A stretch of DNA of 37,043 nucleotides, taken from the NCBI GenBank assembly GCA_011390065.1, contig JAABTD010000017.1, forward strand, positions 1-37,043, read 5' to 3'. Position numbers and translations under genes: made by a program. Origin of the DNA: Desulfobacteraceae bacterium. Its GTDB lineage: Bacteria; Desulfobacterota; Desulfobacteria; Desulfobacterales; JAABSP01. Positions 1,772 through 33,631 of this stretch are shown piece by piece (position 1 is the first letter of the stretch; every line of letters starts with the position of its first letter). The notes below the pieces were generated by a model. The model was not told where the DNA came from. It saw only the letters and a program-made list of their open reading frames with translations, and made no database searches.

Positions 1772-3823
1772 TCACTCCGGCAACCGTGTGATCAAAAAAT
1801 CATCCTTCTTCTCAGGCGCTCTGTTTTCTTCGAAATCTTCGGCCACGCCTTTTATCCGGATCATCGATTCAAGGCCGAGCAGTCGGTTAAGACGCCGGTC
1901 GAATTTAATATGGATTGAAGCGGATTCGTTGTTGTTCTTCGGGAATACCGCCACGATGACGCCATTCCCGTCGACCTCCAAAGGGGAATCGCCCACTTCC
2001 AGGACAAGTTTCGCATTGATCCGCTTCTCCACAAACCGGCAGGCCTCCTCGGCCGGAAGCGCCACCAGGGTGGAAAGACCTCCTGCTGAAATATCCAGCA
2101 AATCGCCCCGGGTCGCCCTCCTCTCCGGCTGGCCGTTTTTCGACAGGAGTTGGATCGATACCCGGGCGGCGATTTCCATCCTTTGATCGATGCGCCGCTC
2201 CATGCCGTATTGTTTCAGGATGGTCCGAATATTGCCCGTCTTGTAACAATAATCCTTGAGTTTCTCCTCAAGCTCGGGGAATCGCAGGCAACAGCGCATG
2301 AGGGCGTCTTTTTCCAGGACATGAAGGCGAACGGCGGTCACCGCCCGAAGGGACGCGGTGGTCACCGAAGCTGAAAAAAAACTCTCTCCGCCGGCAATGT
2401 CTCCGGGCTTCAGCGTTTTGACCCAGATCTCTTCTCCATTCTGGTCGTAGGCCAGCACCAGTTCGCCTTCCTCAATGAAAAACAGGCGCTGGTTCATGTG
2501 TCCCTGTTTGAGGATCAGATGCTCTTGCTCATGGTCCTTTTGCACCAGAGAGAAGAAAAAAGCCTCTCCTTCTTCCCGCGACATGGCGTCGTACAGACCC
2601 GCCCACAGCTTCATGTGCTTCTGTTTGGAGGGCAACCGAACCGACTTACGGCCGGTCTTCTCCTGGATTCTGACCAGAGCCCCGGCCGCCGCTGCGCGAA
2701 TTTTCTTGTTGTAGGCGGTGCTTCCAGCGCCTTCGATAATCCGGTTGAGCGTTGGGACAGCCTCCGTCGATCCGATCTGCCCCAGAGCTTCGCAAACGGA
2801 TGCTCCCAGATCCTCCACCTCCTGGACCGTGTCCGAATGGAGAATGCGCAACAGCTCGGCTACCGCGTTCCGGGATTTGACCGCGCCGAGCACCCGGGCG
2901 ATATCCGGTTTGAGGCGCTCGTCAGCCCCGGGCAGAATCGACAGGGCGATCGATTCGCTTTTGTCGCCGCCCAGCCGGTGGATCGCGTGGAGCGCCTCCC
3001 GTTGAACCCTCAAATCCTTATGGTTCAGCAACGGCTGAAGGATCGTCATGTGACGCGCCTTCCCCACCTTCCCGATCAGCTGGACCATATTGCGGGTATA
3101 GAACCAGGGCTGTTCTTTTCCGATCTCCCGCGTCAGGGCCGGGATGGCCTGGGGTCCGATGAAGGAAAGGATCTGAAGTATCCGCGCCCGTTCGTATCGG
3201 GAAGGGCTCCATCGCAGCAATCCCAGCAGCGGCCCGGCAGACGCCGTCCCCAGATGGAGGAGACAATCGACGGCAGGCGACCGCTTTCCCCGGGCATTGG
3301 TCTGGAACTCGTCCAGCAGTATGTCCAGCACTTCGTCCGTCGCGACATCATCCAGCAGCCTGGCCGCCAGATTTTGAATTTCTTGCGATTTTTTCAGCTT
3401 GCCGGTCCGAATGATATAAAAGGTTTCGAGAATATGGTCGCTTTCAGCGAATTGGCTGTTAAGGATCAGATGGGCGACCAGCTCCCGGAACTGATCACAG
3501 ATCCGCTCGTAAGTGGGGGACAGCCGGGCCTCCAGAATGATCCAGATCACCACCCGATGAGAAAGTTGATAGAACAGCGTCATTTCCCGGCGGGCCAGCA
3601 ACCGGTCCCCCACCCGGCTCACCGCTCGGGCGATATCCGGCAAAAACGAAGCATCTTCGCTGAGAAGGCTTTCGCCCAGCCGCTTTGCAGCGATTTCGGC
3701 GCTCATGAGATCCGAGGCGTCCAACCACCGTTGGATGTGATCGGGAAGAGCTTCCAAAGCGTTTTTGTCTTCGAACGCCTGCTTGTCGCCTTTGAGAAAC
3801 GCCTTCAGCTCTGATTCCAGCAT
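1772..3823 (-). CDS. HEAT-repeat protein with cyclic-nucleotide-binding-like and PilZ domains
   Basis: A 683-residue soluble signalling protein. Residues about 1-390 are helical HEAT-type repeats (for example HKDLRVQREALHAIHRLGG). Residues about 415-520 form a cyclic-nucleotide-binding-like beta roll (ILKQGH...FFIEEGELVL...LKPGDIAGGESFF). Residues 543-660 form a PilZ domain with the c-di-GMP motif R544-x3-R548 and D577-x-S579-x2-G582. The cNMP phosphate cassette is degenerate: where RxA is expected the chain reads TTAS, so canonical cAMP binding is doubtful, while c-di-GMP binding looks intact. There is no membrane segment, DNA-binding domain or enzyme domain, so it probably acts as a scaffold that changes partners on ligand binding. 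The start has GGAG eight bases upstream. The gene lies 36 bases after a HEAT paralog in the same direction. Confidence 0.85.
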   Translation of the reverse strand: MLESELKAFLKGDKQAFEDKNALEALPDHIQRWLDASDLMSAEIAAKRLGESLLSEDASFLPDIARAVSRVGDRLLARREMTLFYQLSHRVVIWIILEARLSPTYERICDQFRELVAHLILNSQFAESDHILETFYIIRTGKLKKSQEIQNLAARLLDDVATDEVLDILLDEFQTNARGKRSPAVDCLLHLGTASAGPLLGLLRWSPSRYERARILQILSFIGPQAIPALTREIGKEQPWFYTRNMVQLIGKVGKARHMTILQPLLNHKDLRVQREALHAIHRLGGDKSESIALSILPGADERLKPDIARVLGAVKSRNAVAELLRILHSDTVQEVEDLGASVCEALGQIGSTEAVPTLNRIIEGAGSTAYNKKIRAAAAGALVRIQEKTGRKSVRLPSKQKHMKLWAGLYDAMSREEGEAFFFSLVQKDHEQEHLILKQGHMNQRLFFIEEGELVLAYDQNGEEIWVKTLKPGDIAGGESFFSASVTTASLRAVTAVRLHVLEKDALMRCCLRFPELEEKLKDYCYKTGNIRTILKQYGMERRIDQRMEIAARVSIQLLSKNGQPERRATRGDLLDISAGGLSTLVALPAEEACRFVEKRINAKLVLEVGDSPLEVDGNGVIVAVFPKNNNESASIHIKFDRRLNRLLGLESMIRIKGVAEDFEENRAPEKKDDFLITRLPE

Positions 3824-3859
3824 CCTGCATCTCCGTTGGATGGTCTACGCGCCAATCGC

Positions 3860-5992
3860 TTATTCCACCGCCCCTTCTTTTCCGCTTTTGCGGTGCGGGT
3901 TCGACGCGTCGGGTCCATTTCTTTTCGGGCTCGACGACGCCGCTTTCCGTTCAATGGCATTGATGGCAGTTTGGGCGGCCGCGCCCACGGCGCCGCCGAA
4001 GCCTTTGCCGGCGGCGAACATGCCTTTTTTCCGGTCTTCGGCGATCTCGCGCAGCAGCGGAAGGGCTTCAGGCGCGCCGATGCCGGCCAGCGCGTTGCAG
4101 ATCCGCACTGCCAGTTCATTTTTCAATTTGGATGCGTTCAGGGCCTCCGACTCAAGGAGCTTCAGAAGCGGGTAAACCGCTTCCCGTTCCTGCCAGGCCC
4201 CCAGCAGACCGATGATGTTGAGTTTCAACTCGTCATCTGCCTGGGGAAGGGCCTCGAGCACGCGCCGCCGGCCTTCCTGTCCGCCGATGGCGTAAATGCT
4301 GTTCAGGGCCTCCCGCCGCACCCGCAGATCCCGATGTTCCAGAAACGGAGTGATGGTCGGCAGATGCGCCTCGGTTCCAAACTTCCCGAACAACAGAATC
4401 AGATTCCGGACATAATACCATGGGGCCTCCTGAGCCACGGCCTCTTCGAGTTTCGGCAGGGCCGTCTTTCCCATCAGATAAATCACCCGGATGATGCGGG
4501 ACCGTTCTTTTCTGGCGGGACTCTCCCCCAATCGATGCAGCAACGCATCCATCGCGCCGGCCCCCAGCAGGACCAGCCGGTCCGTGGCCTGTTTCCGGGC
4601 GCCTTCATCGCCGGACAGGAGATTCTCCAGGTAGACCGCGGTCAACTGGGGAGCGGCGATCTCCTCCAGCGCTTTCCGGGCGGCGACGACCATCCCTTCC
4701 TCTTTCCGGACCCTGCCGGCATGGATGAAATTGAAGATTTTCAGAATATGACGGCAACTGTCGAATTTTTCGTTTTGGATCAAGAGGCGCGCGACATCCC
4801 GAAGCTGAGAGCAGACCCTCCCGTAGGTCCGACTCATCTCCGTTTCGGTCCGGACCCAGCCGGCCAATTTATAGGACAGCGTCAGCATCAGCGCTTCATG
4901 GTCCGAATCCGCCATCAGGCGATCCATGGTCCGGGAAAGAATCGGGGCGATGTCGGCCCGCACTTGCCGGCCTTCGCTGAGCAGCGCTTCAGAAAGGCGT
5001 TCGATAACGCCTTCCATCGCGTTCTGATTCCCTTTGGCCAGAAATCGATCGATGACATCGGGCAGCGTCATAAGGAATTCGGTATCCTGAAAGACCGTTT
5101 TTTCGCTTTTAAAGAGGCGTTCCATGCCGGATTTGATCCGGTTATTCGCACCGCGGTTCATCGATTCGAGCAACCGTTTTCCCCGAGCCGATCGCGTCAC
5201 GTTGCGCCATGCCGCATCGACGGCGTCCAGCGACGGCGTCTCCTCAGCATGGGCGGAGATCCCACGCTTGGAGGCCATCGCCTCGCGTTTCCGCCGTATG
5301 CCGGCCAGCAGCCGTTCATAGCGGACATTGTCGATCCCGTCCAGGATGACCGTAAGAAGGCGTTCCCGAAAGCCGCCTTCCATTTTCCTGGACAGGAAGT
5401 TGCAGACCGTCTCATCGTCCCTGGAAACGACGGCGCGGCCCAGATGGCGGCAGACCGCTTCCCTGTCCGCCCCCTCCAGGATCGCTTCCAGAGAAAAGAG
5501 CATCGCCTCGATTGCGGCTGGACCCAGGGTCTGCTCAGGGGCGTTTCCGGTCTTCTCCCCGGCCGGCCCGCCATCCACCAGGACATGATCCAGGTGGGCG
5601 ACGGCGGCTGCCGCCCCCCCGCGCTTTTCCACCGACTCGGGTTTTTCAGTGAGAAGTTCCAGAAACTTTGTAAACTCCGGGCGATCCAGTCGATGATCCA
5701 TCACCAGCCGGCGGACGCCGAATCCGAAGAGCAGATCCAGAAACGACGCCACCTGGGCCTTGCGCAGCAGTTTCTCTTCCAGCGGCTCTCCGCAGACGCC
5801 GACGCCATGGTCTGTCTTTTGGACGGAAAAAGGGGCGTCGTCTTTAAAAAAATCGGAGATGGCTTCGTAGGCTTTGTCGATGTAATCGACCGTCGAGGGG
5901 TTGGAAACGGGAAAAAGGCGAATCCGCTGAATCGCCGCATTCATGGCGATCATCGCGCCCACCGCCTTTTCCTGGATATCTGAAGTCGCCAT
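3860..5992 (-). CDS. HEAT-repeat protein, upstream paralog
   Basis: A 710-residue predicted soluble protein. From about residue 300 to the end it is collinear with the HEAT part of the downstream neighbour. Shared landmarks are the segment around LSRTMDRLMADSDHE, then PWYYVRNLILLFGKFG (PWFYTRNMVQLIGKVG in the paralog), then HRDLRVRREALNSIYAIGG. The first 300 residues are an additional helical region, including FFKDDAPFSVQ and a segment near FLDLLFGFGVRRL that I have seen at the N-terminus of other large HEAT proteins. The tail after residue 660 is basic and disordered. No CNB or PilZ domain is present. It is the first gene of the transcription unit and has a plausible promoter at 6052-6081. 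The function is unknown; the pair looks like a duplication in which one copy gained sensor domains. Confidence 0.8.
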   Translation of the reverse strand: MATSDIQEKAVGAMIAMNAAIQRIRLFPVSNPSTVDYIDKAYEAISDFFKDDAPFSVQKTDHGVGVCGEPLEEKLLRKAQVASFLDLLFGFGVRRLVMDHRLDRPEFTKFLELLTEKPESVEKRGGAAAAVAHLDHVLVDGGPAGEKTGNAPEQTLGPAAIEAMLFSLEAILEGADREAVCRHLGRAVVSRDDETVCNFLSRKMEGGFRERLLTVILDGIDNVRYERLLAGIRRKREAMASKRGISAHAEETPSLDAVDAAWRNVTRSARGKRLLESMNRGANNRIKSGMERLFKSEKTVFQDTEFLMTLPDVIDRFLAKGNQNAMEGVIERLSEALLSEGRQVRADIAPILSRTMDRLMADSDHEALMLTLSYKLAGWVRTETEMSRTYGRVCSQLRDVARLLIQNEKFDSCRHILKIFNFIHAGRVRKEEGMVVAARKALEEIAAPQLTAVYLENLLSGDEGARKQATDRLVLLGAGAMDALLHRLGESPARKERSRIIRVIYLMGKTALPKLEEAVAQEAPWYYVRNLILLFGKFGTEAHLPTITPFLEHRDLRVRREALNSIYAIGGQEGRRRVLEALPQADDELKLNIIGLLGAWQEREAVYPLLKLLESEALNASKLKNELAVRICNALAGIGAPEALPLLREIAEDRKKGMFAAGKGFGGAVGAAAQTAINAIERKAASSSPKRNGPDASNPHRKSGKEGAVE

Positions 5993-6051: not shown

Positions 6052-6081
6052 ATCCTAAGATGAATCCGACGGTGTTGTCAA
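6052..6081 (-). promoter_or_regulatory. Sigma-70-type promoter for the HEAT-repeat operon
   Basis: Read on the minus strand, TTGACA (complement of 6076-6081) is a perfect -35 box, followed by an 18-base spacer and TAGGAT (complement of 6052-6057, 4 of 6). The transcript would begin about 50 bases before the start at 5992. The surrounding stretch is AT-rich, unlike the genes on either side. Confidence 0.55.
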
Positions 6082-6182: not shown

Positions 6183-6238
6183 TCTTCCCCCTTAAAAAGG
6201 GCTACTTTCAACCATACATGATTTGAGTGCAAAAGGCC

Positions 6239-6925
6239 ATGAGTATTAATGTTGTTGACAAAATCGACGATCTGGTAAACGTCGACCATGTGCTGGTCAG
6301 CGTTTCCGACAAAACCGGGCTGGAGACCTTCATCCCCCGCCTGGTCGAGGTGAACCCCAGCATCCGCTTCTTCTCCACCGGCGGCACCTACAACCGGATT
6401 AAGGAGATCCTCGGTCCGGAGGCCGACGACCGGTTGACCCCGGTCTCCGATTATACCGGCCAGCCGGAGACCCAGGGCGGACTGGTGAAAACGCTTGATT
6501 TCAAGATTTACCTGGGACTTCTCACCGAAACCTACAACGAAGATCATCAGGGGGATCTCCGGCGCACCGGGGCGGTTCCCATCGACATGGTGGTGGTCAA
6601 CCTCTACCCGTTTAAGGAAACCGTGGCCAAGCCGGACGTCACCGTGGAAGGGGCCCGGGGCAACATCGACATCGGCGGCCCCTGCATGATCCGGGCCTCG
6701 GCCAAAAATTTCATCCGGGTGGCGTCGGTGGTGGATCCGGCCGATTACGACACGATCCTGACCCACATGGCGGAAAACGGGGGCGGAACCCGCCATGGAT
6801 TGCGGTTCGAACTGGCCCGAAAGGCCTTCAACCACACCGCGGCCTACGACCGGGCCATCGCCGATTACCTCGACGCATGCGCCCTCCAGGACATTCAAAC
6901 CCCCTACGCCTACGAAAGGATCTGA
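6239..6925 (+). CDS. purH: IMP cyclohydrolase (N-terminal PurH domain as a separate protein)
   Basis: This protein closes the ring of FAICAR to give IMP, the last step of purine synthesis. It corresponds to the N-terminal, MGS-like half of bifunctional PurH. It opens with VLVSVSDKTGLE, followed by the phosphate-binding FFSTGGTY, then PETQGGLVKTLDFKIYLGLL, VVVNLYPF and GNIDIGGPCMIRASAKN, all hallmark segments. The domain stops after about 228 residues, and the transformylase domain is encoded by the next gene after a 3-base gap. I chose the ATG at 6239; a GTG four codons upstream (6227) is possible, and neither has a strong ribosome site. The two proteins very likely act together and may form a complex. 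A good promoter lies about 80 bases upstream. Confidence 0.92.
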   Translation: MSINVVDKIDDLVNVDHVLVSVSDKTGLETFIPRLVEVNPSIRFFSTGGTYNRIKEILGPEADDRLTPVSDYTGQPETQGGLVKTLDFKIYLGLLTETYNEDHQGDLRRTGAVPIDMVVVNLYPFKETVAKPDVTVEGARGNIDIGGPCMIRASAKNFIRVASVVDPADYDTILTHMAENGGGTRHGLRFELARKAFNHTAAYDRAIADYLDACALQDIQTPYAYERI

Positions 6926-6928
6926 TCC

Positions 6929-8179
6929 ATGGCCCAGAAACTTCAGGAAATGTACAAGACAGTCGTTCACGACCATTTCCCCCCCCGAATGGAGATCGCC
7001 TTCGTGGACGAAAACCGGCGTCAGACCCTGTTTTACGAAAAGGTGACCTGGCGGATCGAAGGGGTGGAAAAGGGACTTCGATACGGCGAAAACCCCGGCC
7101 AGGAGGCGGCCCTCTACAAACTGGTCAACGGCAACCTCGTCCTGGGCGAGACCGAGACCCTGACGCCGGGCCGGCATTTGGCCTCAGACATCGAACTCCT
7201 CCAGTCGGGGAAGCACCCCGGCAAGACCAATTTAACAGATGCCGACAACGCCCTGAACATCCTGCGGTATTTCAGCGACCAGCCCGCCGCGGTCATCGTC
7301 AAGCACAACAACCCCTGCGGGGCGGCCCGGGCGAACGCCTTGGCCGACGCCTACGAAAAGGCCTACATGGCCGACCGGGTGGCGGCCTTCGGCGGGTGCA
7401 TCGCCCTCAATCGGGCGGTTGACAAAGCTACGGCCGAGGCCGTTTCGGCCCAGTACGCCGAGGTCGTCGTCGCCCCCGATTTCGAAGACGGGTGCCTGGA
7501 GATTCTGGCCCGCCGGAAAAATCTGCGGGTGATCCGCATCCGGGCCATCGAGCGGCTCCAGACCTTTGTGGGGCAACGGGTGGTGGAGTTCAAGTCGCTC
7601 ATGGACGGCGGCGTGGTGGCCCAGTGGTCCTTTGTGCCCGAGGCCCGGTCCAAGGCGGATCTGACCCCGGCCAGCCACGATTACAAGGGTAAAACCTATC
7701 GAATCCAGCGGGAACCCACCGACGCGGAATACGACGACCTGCTCTTCGGTTGGCTGGTGGAATCGGGCATCACCTCCAATTCCGTCATCTACGTAAAAGA
7801 CAATTGCACCGTGGGCATCGGCACCGGCGAACAGGACCGGGTGGGCGTGGCGGAAATCGCCCGGGACAAGGCCTACCGGAAGCTGGCCGACCGGTACTGC
7901 TTTCTGGAACACGCCCTGCCCTACAACGACCTGGCGGACGCCGATAAAAAAGCGGCCATCGACGCCCGGGTGGCTGAAGAAAACGGCGGTCTCATCGGCG
8001 CGGCCATGGTCAGCGACGCCTTTTTCCCCTTCCGGGACGGCGTGGACGTGGGCATTCGGGAAGGCATCACATCGGTGATCCAGCCGGGCGGATCGGGCAA
8101 CGACTACCAGTCCATCGAAGCCTGCAACGACGCCGGAGTGGCCATGGTCTATACGGGCCAGCGGAGCTTCAAGCACTGA
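6929..8179 (+). CDS. purH: AICAR formyltransferase (C-terminal PurH domain as a separate protein)
   Basis: Transfers a formyl group from 10-formyltetrahydrofolate to AICAR, giving FAICAR for the adjacent cyclohydrolase. It has 416 residues with the family signatures LRYGENPGQEAALY near the N-terminus, the catalytic KHNNPCG (Lys-His with Asn), AFGGCIALNR, and the C-terminal DGVDVGIREGITSVIQPGG followed by a terminal RSFKH. It begins three bases after the cyclohydrolase stop with its own AAAGGA ribosome site, so the split is clean: there is no in-frame remnant of a fused linker and no sign of a recent frameshift. The N-terminal 45 residues, before the conserved LRYGENP, are extra and may replace the linker contact. 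The last 11 bases overlap the convergent channel gene. Confidence 0.93.
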   Translation: MAQKLQEMYKTVVHDHFPPRMEIAFVDENRRQTLFYEKVTWRIEGVEKGLRYGENPGQEAALYKLVNGNLVLGETETLTPGRHLASDIELLQSGKHPGKTNLTDADNALNILRYFSDQPAAVIVKHNNPCGAARANALADAYEKAYMADRVAAFGGCIALNRAVDKATAEAVSAQYAEVVVAPDFEDGCLEILARRKNLRVIRIRAIERLQTFVGQRVVEFKSLMDGGVVAQWSFVPEARSKADLTPASHDYKGKTYRIQREPTDAEYDDLLFGWLVESGITSNSVIYVKDNCTVGIGTGEQDRVGVAEIARDKAYRKLADRYCFLEHALPYNDLADADKKAAIDARVAEENGGLIGAAMVSDAFFPFRDGVDVGIREGITSVIQPGGSGNDYQSIEACNDAGVAMVYTGQRSFKH

Positions 8180-32080: not shown

Positions 32081-32109
32081 TTGACGAATTCGGGGATGGA
32101 TGGAATACT
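32081..32109 (+). promoter_or_regulatory. Candidate promoter for the MORN-repeat gene
   Basis: TTGACG at 32081-32086 (5 of 6) and AATACT at 32104-32109 (4 of 6) are 17 bases apart. The start site would be about 65 bases before the ATG at 32180. This also argues against translation beginning at the in-frame TTG at 32081. Confidence 0.45.
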
Positions 32110-32179
32110 TTTCGCGTTCGTTCAGAATCATTTGAAATGGTTTGGAAAGATGCGAAAACAGCCTCCCGGAGATCTGTCC

Positions 32180-33631
32180 ATGACCCCGTTTCAACGCGGC
32201 AAGTCGCTGAAAAGAGAGTTCCAGCGCAAACGGAGAACCGTCCCATCCCCCGATGAAGAGCCGACCTCTGAATCCCCGGCGTCGCCATTCGCGCGGATAC
32301 GGCCATTCAGGCCGAAGGACGCTGAAACCCGGCGTCGGGGCGACGGCGCCGAACTGACCGGTCGCTTTACGGACGGCCGCCTCGACGGCTGCGGGGTCAT
32401 GGTCTTTCCGGATGGTCGCCGCTATGAAGGGGAATTCAAGGCAGGCGCTCTGGAGGGTCACGGGACCCTGTTCTATCCCAGCGGCGCCGTCTATGTGGGA
32501 CGCTTTCGCCGCAACAAACGCCACGGACAGGGCGACATGACCTTTGCCAGCGGCTTTCGGTACGAAGGCCATTTCAGGCAAGGCCGGTGTCATGGGTATG
32601 GATCCCTTTACTTTCCCGACGGCGCCGTCTATCATGGCCAGTTTGAAAACGGTCGATTCAACGGCCGGGGAGACCTCTCTTTCCCGGACGGCGCCCGCTA
32701 CGAGGGGCAATTCCGGGACGACCGGCGCCATGGGCCGGGAACCCTGATCCTTCCCAACGGCTTCAAATACGACGGCCAGTTCGCGAACAACCGGCCGGAG
32801 GGCCGCGGCGAGATGACCTATCCCGGCGGGGCCTCGTATGTGGGCCGGCTCAAGGCCGGCAAATGCCATGGCTATGGTCGCCTGGTTTATGGAAACGGCG
32901 CCCGGTACGAGGGGGAGTTCAAGGAAGGCTATTACCACGGGCAGGGGCGGCTGACCTTTCCCGACGGCACGGTCCAGGAAGGAAAATTTCACAACGACCA
33001 GCTTCAGAACCAAGGGACCGTCGCCCGGCCGGACGGGAAGACGGGGAAAAAACAGACCGGCAAGATGGCCGTGGTCGGGAAAAAGCCGGAGCAGAGCGTC
33101 TTCCTGCTGGATATGGATATGGAGGATTTATGGCTCAGGGAGGATGAACCCGAAAAGGAGGCCGACCTCCGGGCCCCTGAGCAGCCCGGCCGCAAACGAT
33201 CCCGGCATCGAACCTCGGACGGCCATTTTGTGGCCTCCAAGGAGGAGATCATTGTGGACAACTGGCTTTACATGACCGGCGTCCGCCATGCCCACGGAAA
33301 ACGGCTGCCCCTGGAAGAAGAGATTTACGTCACCTTCTACTTGCCGGAAGGCCGGGTCTGCCTCGAGTGCCGGGGGGGATCGGAGCGGTCCGAAGAGAAG
33401 GAACGGAAACGACGCCTCTTTAAAAACAATCATTTCAACCTGATCGAACTCAGGGACGAGGATTTTTACAATCTTGACGACATCTTATCTCAAAAACTCC
33501 TGGCCTGCGGCATCCGCGCGCTTGAGCCGGAACCTCTTTTTCGCCGTTTTCACCCTGGCAATGCTGGGGTTCCTGCTGACCCTGACGCCTGCCCGGGGTC
33601 AAGAAGCCGATCCCCCGACAGCCGCCTCTGA
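32180..33631 (+). CDS. MORN-repeat protein with C-terminal nuclease-like domain
   Basis: A 483-residue protein. After a basic N-terminal region come ten consecutive 23-residue MORN repeats (residues 58-287, pattern YEGEFKxGxxHGxGxLxFPDG), a beta-hairpin array known for lipid or protein contact. A charged linker follows. Residues about 346-446 resemble a PD-(D/E)XK nuclease domain: VASKEEIIVDNWLYMTGVRH, FYLPEGRVCLECRG and FNLIELRDEDFYNLDDIL. In relatives the strand reads DFYLP...EYWG; here the Asp is Thr (VTFYLP) while the Glu is kept (LECRG), so catalysis may be lost. The ATG at 32180 has GGAG eight bases upstream. The last 158 bases overlap lolA, and the tail after residue 446 looks like out-of-frame lolA sequence rather than a conserved domain. 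Confidence 0.8.
   Translation: MTPFQRGKSLKREFQRKRRTVPSPDEEPTSESPASPFARIRPFRPKDAETRRRGDGAELTGRFTDGRLDGCGVMVFPDGRRYEGEFKAGALEGHGTLFYPSGAVYVGRFRRNKRHGQGDMTFASGFRYEGHFRQGRCHGYGSLYFPDGAVYHGQFENGRFNGRGDLSFPDGARYEGQFRDDRRHGPGTLILPNGFKYDGQFANNRPEGRGEMTYPGGASYVGRLKAGKCHGYGRLVYGNGARYEGEFKEGYYHGQGRLTFPDGTVQEGKFHNDQLQNQGTVARPDGKTGKKQTGKMAVVGKKPEQSVFLLDMDMEDLWLREDEPEKEADLRAPEQPGRKRSRHRTSDGHFVASKEEIIVDNWLYMTGVRHAHGKRLPLEEEIYVTFYLPEGRVCLECRGGSERSEEKERKRRLFKNNHFNLIELRDEDFYNLDDILSQKLLACGIRALEPEPLFRRFHPGNAGVPADPDACPGSRSRSPDSRL
32351..33040 (+). repeat. Tandem array of ten 69-bp units encoding MORN repeats
   Basis: Ten in-register units of 23 codons each, without insertions or gaps. Repeats 2 to 9 keep the Y-x-G-x-F start and the Gly-x-Gly core. 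The first (ELTGRF) and last (VQEGKF) are the most divergent, as usual for capping units. The DNA units have diverged in sequence, so this is an old protein repeat, not a recent expansion. Confidence 0.9.

Follow-up and report, generated by a model that had tools for sequence, protein, structure and literature searches.

Our analysis identified two adjacent genes, P0002 and P0001, in a 37,043-nt stretch of Desulfobacteraceae DNA (hereafter the window, which is one entire contig in an assembly of 5.0 Mb, 464 contigs and 98.6% completeness), whose products jointly carry an N-terminal domain (N domain), a HEAT-repeat solenoid, a cyclic-nucleotide-binding (CNB) fold and a PilZ domain. These four parts, encoded in one polypeptide or in two neighboring ones, define what is apparently an undescribed protein family of the phylum, with P0002 and P0001 together representing its two-polypeptide form. 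We favor, with moderate confidence, the reading that the pair constitutes a putative c-di-GMP-gated protein scaffold, which is probably hetero-oligomeric.

A preliminary description of this DNA had reported two collinear HEAT-containing ORFs 36 bases apart, and both ORFs and the gap between them were recovered exactly as described. The features of the locus, in window coordinates and in the order of transcription, are as follows:

6052..6081, minus strand: promoter-like site TTGACA-18-TAGGAT, 5' of P0002; a consensus match only
3860..5992, minus strand: P0002, the upstream gene, 710 aa; N domain, helical middle region and HEAT solenoid, with neither CNB nor PilZ (Pfam, AlphaFold2)
5573..5992, minus strand: N domain of P0002, aa 1–140; alpha-alpha-beta-beta-alpha-beta-alpha in the AlphaFold2 model
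5138..5524, minus strand: helical middle region of P0002, aa 157–285
4037..5137, minus strand: HEAT solenoid of P0002, aa 286–652 (Pfam, paralog alignment, AlphaFold2, structure search)
3824..3859, minus strand: intergenic gap of 36 bp, with GGAG 5' of the P0001 ATG
1772..3823, minus strand: P0001, the downstream gene, 683 aa; HEAT, CNB and PilZ, with no N domain (Pfam, AlphaFold2)
2654..3820, minus strand: HEAT solenoid of P0001, aa 2–390 (Pfam, paralog alignment, AlphaFold2)
2234..2614, minus strand: CNB-fold domain of P0001, aa 404–530 (Pfam cNMP_binding, E 2.7e-14; structure search)
2360..2362, minus strand: codon of T488, where CNB domains that bind cyclic nucleotides have their phosphate-contact Arg (family alignment and kinase register)
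1874..2203, minus strand: PilZ domain of P0001, aa 541–650 (Pfam, AlphaFold2, Pfam matches of homologs)
2180..2194, minus strand: RxxxR motif, RIDQR, aa 544–548; exact
2078..2095, minus strand: DxSxxG motif, DISAGG, aa 577–582; exact

Plausible ribosome-binding sites are present at the start of both genes. On the upstream side, P0002 is adjoined by a divergent purH, and moaA lies 46 bp 3' of P0001 on the same strand; given the promoter-like site 5' of P0002, P0002, P0001 and moaA may share one transcript. No RNA families or tRNAs were found within the window, and a plasmid search returned no match. Homologs and structure models (AlphaFold2 mean pLDDT of 89.3 and 90.7 across the two proteins) rule out chance or spurious ORFs, and a single broken or frameshifted gene is likewise ruled out because the HEAT solenoid occurs twice and both copies are kept in four genomes. 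In the same window, purH (6227–8179, plus strand) itself comprises two same-frame ORFs of 232 and 416 aa, separated by a TGA at 6923–6925, with the break falling inside the AICARFT/IMPCHase domain. Its counterparts in relatives are also two ORFs, in some cases in different frames, and thus, judged from these sequences, the two-ORF form appears to be a genuine, conserved split of the gene. At 32081–33631, the plus strand encodes a 516-aa protein rich in MORN repeats (E 4e-54), and a LolA gene comes next.

The HEAT parts of P0001 and P0002 are paralogous, sharing 36% identity over 367 aa (E 2e-72). Both proteins match Pfam HEAT_2 (PF13646; E 1e-13 and 5e-13), and both the profile and the paired-helix solenoid expected of HEAT repeats are present. 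A structure search, in which the whole-P0002 results were filled by the HEAT part, matched the C-terminal half of P0002 to HEAT-like solenoids. The same helical solenoid is seen in the bacterial HEAT-repeat protein YibA (1oyz, Z 12.6, rmsd 13.7 over 241 residues) and in the designed alphaRep scaffolds (7z0g, Z 16.8, rmsd 4.2 over 191), which, unlike the P0001/P0002 family, have no N domain, CNB or PilZ. Upstream of its solenoid, P0002 had been credited with a 300-residue N-terminal extension; such an extension exists, but it measures 285 aa and resolves into the N domain and the helical middle region, both well folded in the AlphaFold2 model. The N domain is common to full-length relatives and resembles the N termini of HD-GYP proteins, and a profile search of it against the PDB gave only weak matches, mostly to designed proteins.

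The usual relative is a single chain of 918–1680 aa that runs from the N domain through a middle helical region, HEAT repeats and a helical linker to CNB and PilZ. We surveyed 389 genomes of the class for the HEAT family, recovered in 61, and for the CNB-PilZ cassette (CP), recovered in 115. Among the 73 HEAT regions, 25 share an ORF with CP, and another 22 are followed by a same-strand CP no more than 3.5 kb downstream. Family f57 accounts for 17 of these 22, all of them two-gene pairs of N-HEAT and stand-alone CP; the other five comprise the four P0002-type genes and, in genome G026, a copy with HEAT only. The remaining 26 HEAT regions have no CP within 3.5 kb, some of them lying at contig ends. 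Fused and split states follow families, and these linkage counts therefore do not represent independent events. Linked HEAT-CP forms occur in 41 of the 389 genomes. Fusion of HEAT to CNB-PilZ, mostly in the full-length form that includes the N domain, is seen in 11 families within the class and, beyond it, in the two families f85 and f163. Single-chain N-HEAT-CP proteins are found in G005, G011, G017, G020, G021, G026 and G054, among others, and outside the class in the same f85 and f163.

A single-protein scan of a named genome collection found no relative, and a HEAT profile search of named genomes yielded 20 loci, mostly from Desulfobacterales metagenome-assembled genomes; the Delta 4 endosymbiont of Olavius algarvensis carries the full-length form. 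In this endosymbiont (L080, 3164–6676, minus strand), the full-length gene is directly followed by one encoding a Guanylate_cyc (nucleotide cyclase)-AAA-TPR protein. The f57 pair closes a conserved run of L27, obg, proB, proA, nadD, rsfS, gpmI and an HSDR_N-like gene (L174, 1105–11471, plus strand). Large proteins with two tandem N domains (ORFs of ~1400 aa) are common in the class, and one sampled example (L222, 3–3344, plus strand) also contains AAA_16 and HEAT repeats.

These distributions bear on whether P0001 and P0002 act together. An alternative, which we regard as rather improbable, is that they are independent scaffolds with different partners, adjacent merely through tandem duplication. 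Gene duplicates do arise adjacent, the identity between the two HEAT parts is low, and the 26 HEAT regions with no nearby CP indicate that an N-HEAT protein can exist, and so may work, without a linked PilZ. Against this, P0001 and P0002 together reproduce the domain set of the single-chain relatives, as do two separate genes in the 17 f57 genomes, and the gene order and architecture are kept in all four genomes known of the window's family (G000–G003). Two f163 genomes also encode an N-less HEAT-CP protein elsewhere in the genome besides their full-length copy. The adjacency of the two genes in related genomes, on which the proposal of paired action had been made to depend, thus holds in 4/4 genomes.

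The genomic position of the pair is informative about its history. At the purH-side locus, G011 and G017 carry one full-length gene, G026 carries three tandem copies (full-length, N-less HEAT-CP and HEAT only), and G000–G003 carry the pair of N-HEAT and HEAT-CNB-PilZ genes; moaA is found on the other flank in G000, G001, G002 and G026. In the HEAT tree, the P0002-type sequences form one clade (100/99) and the P0001-type sequences another (100/94), each spanning the four genomes. Support for grouping these two clades is 93/89, and 83 in a second, quick tree; the duplication is therefore older than the family. The N-less copy of G026 was placed differently in the two HEAT trees. On the simplest history, a full-length gene would have duplicated in tandem, after which the two copies would have lost complementary domains. 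Fusions in many families, most of them full-length, and full-length genes at the purH-side locus make it the more likely course that each copy lost one end: CNB-PilZ in P0002, and the N domain, middle region and linker in P0001.

The preliminary description had proposed the opposite direction, with CNB-PilZ acquired by the downstream copy; this could have followed duplication of an N-HEAT gene, for instance if the copy had run into a neighboring CP gene. Although the f57 pairs of N-HEAT and separate CP make a fusion of a duplicated HEAT gene to a CP gene conceivable, and P0001 lacks the helical linker found ahead of CNB in most relatives, we consider such a gain unlikely, and the direction is probably the reverse. 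In addition to the full-length genes beside purH in G011, G017 and G026 and the fusions across 11 plus two families, the CP of P0001 groups with fused CPs (82/87 and 87/80) and apart from those of f57 and the stand-alone CPs. Moreover, the N-less copy of G026 retains some of the middle region, a state expected of a gene undergoing truncation from its N-terminal end.

In the reading of the pair as a c-di-GMP-responsive scaffold, the predicted c-di-GMP binder is the PilZ domain. The PilZ (PF07238) score of P0001 itself falls below threshold (15.9 bits against a curated cut-off of 22.5), and its model is mostly beta with high pLDDT over aa 541–650, a region for which the structure-search results were filled by the CNB domain. 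Nevertheless, 46 of 56 homologs match Pfam PilZ at E<=1e-3, several relatives exceed the cut-off, and the c-di-GMP residues are kept; on these sequence grounds, we regard the P0001 PilZ as real despite its weak score. The RxxxR and (D/N)xSxxG motifs of c-di-GMP-binding PilZ domains are both present, at the positions first reported, and are nearly invariant in homologs (R544, R548 and G582 in 55/55; D577 and S579 in 54/55). Alignment of this motif with c-di-GMP-binding PilZ domains, set beforehand as a check, was obtained in all homologs.

Among PilZ proteins that retain these residues, PlpA is reported not to bind c-di-GMP (PMC8316039). This precedent, together with the weak Pfam score of P0001, raises an unlikely alternative in which the PilZ no longer senses c-di-GMP and instead serves as a protein-binding module. 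Conservation of RR-x3-R and D-x-S-x-x-G in 54–55 of 55 homologs from many families, as expected under selection for ligand binding, speaks against it, as does one relative in which an HD-GYP domain is joined to the cassette.

The CNB domain of P0001 shows both the profile and the beta-roll of the cyclic-nucleotide-binding fold (PF00027), and aa 397–543 superimpose on HCN2 (3bpz) with Z 18.2 and rmsd 1.9 over 130 aligned residues. With the register set against kinase CNB domains that carry the phosphate-contact Arg, T488 occupies this site, and P0001 therefore lacks the phosphate-binding cassette Arg of cAMP/cGMP-binding CNB receptors, as the preliminary description had noted. Its label of a degenerate domain is less apt: all 56 family members match Pfam CNB, none has the Arg, and the site is instead Cys in 41, Ser in 10, Thr in four and Phe in one. 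The domain has thus not decayed in P0001 alone; rather, the whole family has replaced the site, and a stretch of FFxxSVCTTS is conserved in its CNB domains. We infer that the CNB acts as a structural coupler or binds a ligand other than an ordinary cyclic mononucleotide. CNB domains occur elsewhere in c-di-GMP signaling, and Bd1971 (CNB-EAL) and the Xanthomonas cGMP pathway of XC_0249 are reported to respond to cAMP or cGMP (PMC6717892, PMC3770947). In the P0001 family, by contrast, none of the 56 members has the phosphate Arg, and the c-di-GMP part is PilZ.

Several observations connect the family to c-di-GMP turnover. The genome of the window's organism (G000) contains 17 GGDEF matches (E<=3e-12), and by this count c-di-GMP is very probably made there. 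In G319 (L238, 1342–3723, minus strand), a single 794-aa protein combines N domain, HD-GYP, a helical region, CNB and PilZ, with the signature HDVGK...HH...DGTGYP, and its gene lies just downstream of a HEAT protein gene. This protein ties the CNB-PilZ cassette to the phosphodiesterase signature by gene fusion. The N domain is also found in more distant N-HEAT proteins, and five sampled loci of these (L223–L227) adjoin a gene for an HD-domain protein whose N terminus resembles the N domain; complete HD...GYP signatures are present in four, the retrieved sequence of the fifth being truncated. The distant N-HEAT genes and their adjacent HD-GYP genes are a possible partner system.

Two further accounts of function fare far worse. 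Regulation of the adjacent purine and molybdenum-cofactor genes, for which one could cite the short one-strand gap between P0001 and moaA and the fact that purH yields IMP and MoaA consumes GTP, is very improbable: the f57 module ends a different operon, so the neighbor genes do not travel with it, and since its conserved neighbors in f57 are housekeeping genes, a role tied to the neighbors is not supported. PilZ c-di-GMP receptors often control flagella, but a YcgR-type flagellar brake is ruled out here, with no YcgR N-terminal domain in a Pfam scan of P0001 and P0002 and no flagellin match in G000–G003, nor in 26 of the 41 genomes with linked HEAT-CP; without flagellin in G000–G003, the target there is not the flagellum.

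The predicted c-di-GMP-responsive scaffold thus remains the best reading, with its c-di-GMP residues kept in 54–55 of 55 PilZ homologs and the pair conserved in 4/4 genomes of the window's family. Under the mechanism we propose, P0002 and P0001 would assemble via their HEAT parts, and the PilZ of P0001 would bind c-di-GMP, which would alter the packing of the CNB-PilZ head on the HEAT solenoid; the repacked head would in turn open or close a protein-binding surface. Docking on a partner, perhaps a second protein with an N domain, would fall to the N domain of P0002. The genome encodes a PilT-family ATPase, which weakly suggests type IV pili as a possible target. More tentatively, and somewhat on the doubtful side, N-domain proteins could make up a c-di-GMP network across the phylum, with N-HEAT scaffolds, N-domain HD-GYP proteins and CNB-PilZ receptors as interchangeable parts of one complex docked via N domains, in which the Arg-less CNB would have a new ligand or a purely mechanical role.

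With the known PilZ receptors YcgR, PixA, PixB and PlpA, P0001 shares a cytosolic PilZ that bears RxxxR and DxSxxG and is attached to other domains. Unlike them, the pair has no YcgR N-terminal, kinase, receiver or acetyltransferase domain, and its PilZ is instead preceded by a HEAT solenoid and a CNB fold. The leptospiral YcgR-like proteins with a GAF-like insertion resemble the family in joining a PilZ receptor to a divergent domain and in lineage-specific paralog expansion, but they belong to another phylum, have a different extra domain and are without the HEAT repeats found here (PMC11800159). A search of the open-access literature recovered no paper in which the combination of HEAT repeats with either PilZ or HD-GYP is treated as a system. 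What we rate as new is the architecture of this PilZ receptor, in a divided form special to the window's family, and not PilZ receptors as such.

Few c-di-GMP effectors are as common as PilZ receptors, and for most of these the output is undescribed. Occurring linked in 41 of the 389 genomes surveyed and connected to an HD-GYP domain through a gene fusion, the PilZ-HEAT family offers a concrete entry to the output of c-di-GMP in flagellum-free bacteria of the sulfate-reducer type. As the CNB has lost its phosphate Arg throughout the family and has a newly conserved FFxxSVCTTS stretch, it can be tested whether this fold was repurposed. The split pair is a natural experiment, suggestive of the parts that have to remain joined and of the interface required between them. 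If the broader c-di-GMP network holds true, P0002 and P0001 would represent a receptor-scaffold that reciprocal domain loss has divided into an obligate heteromer.
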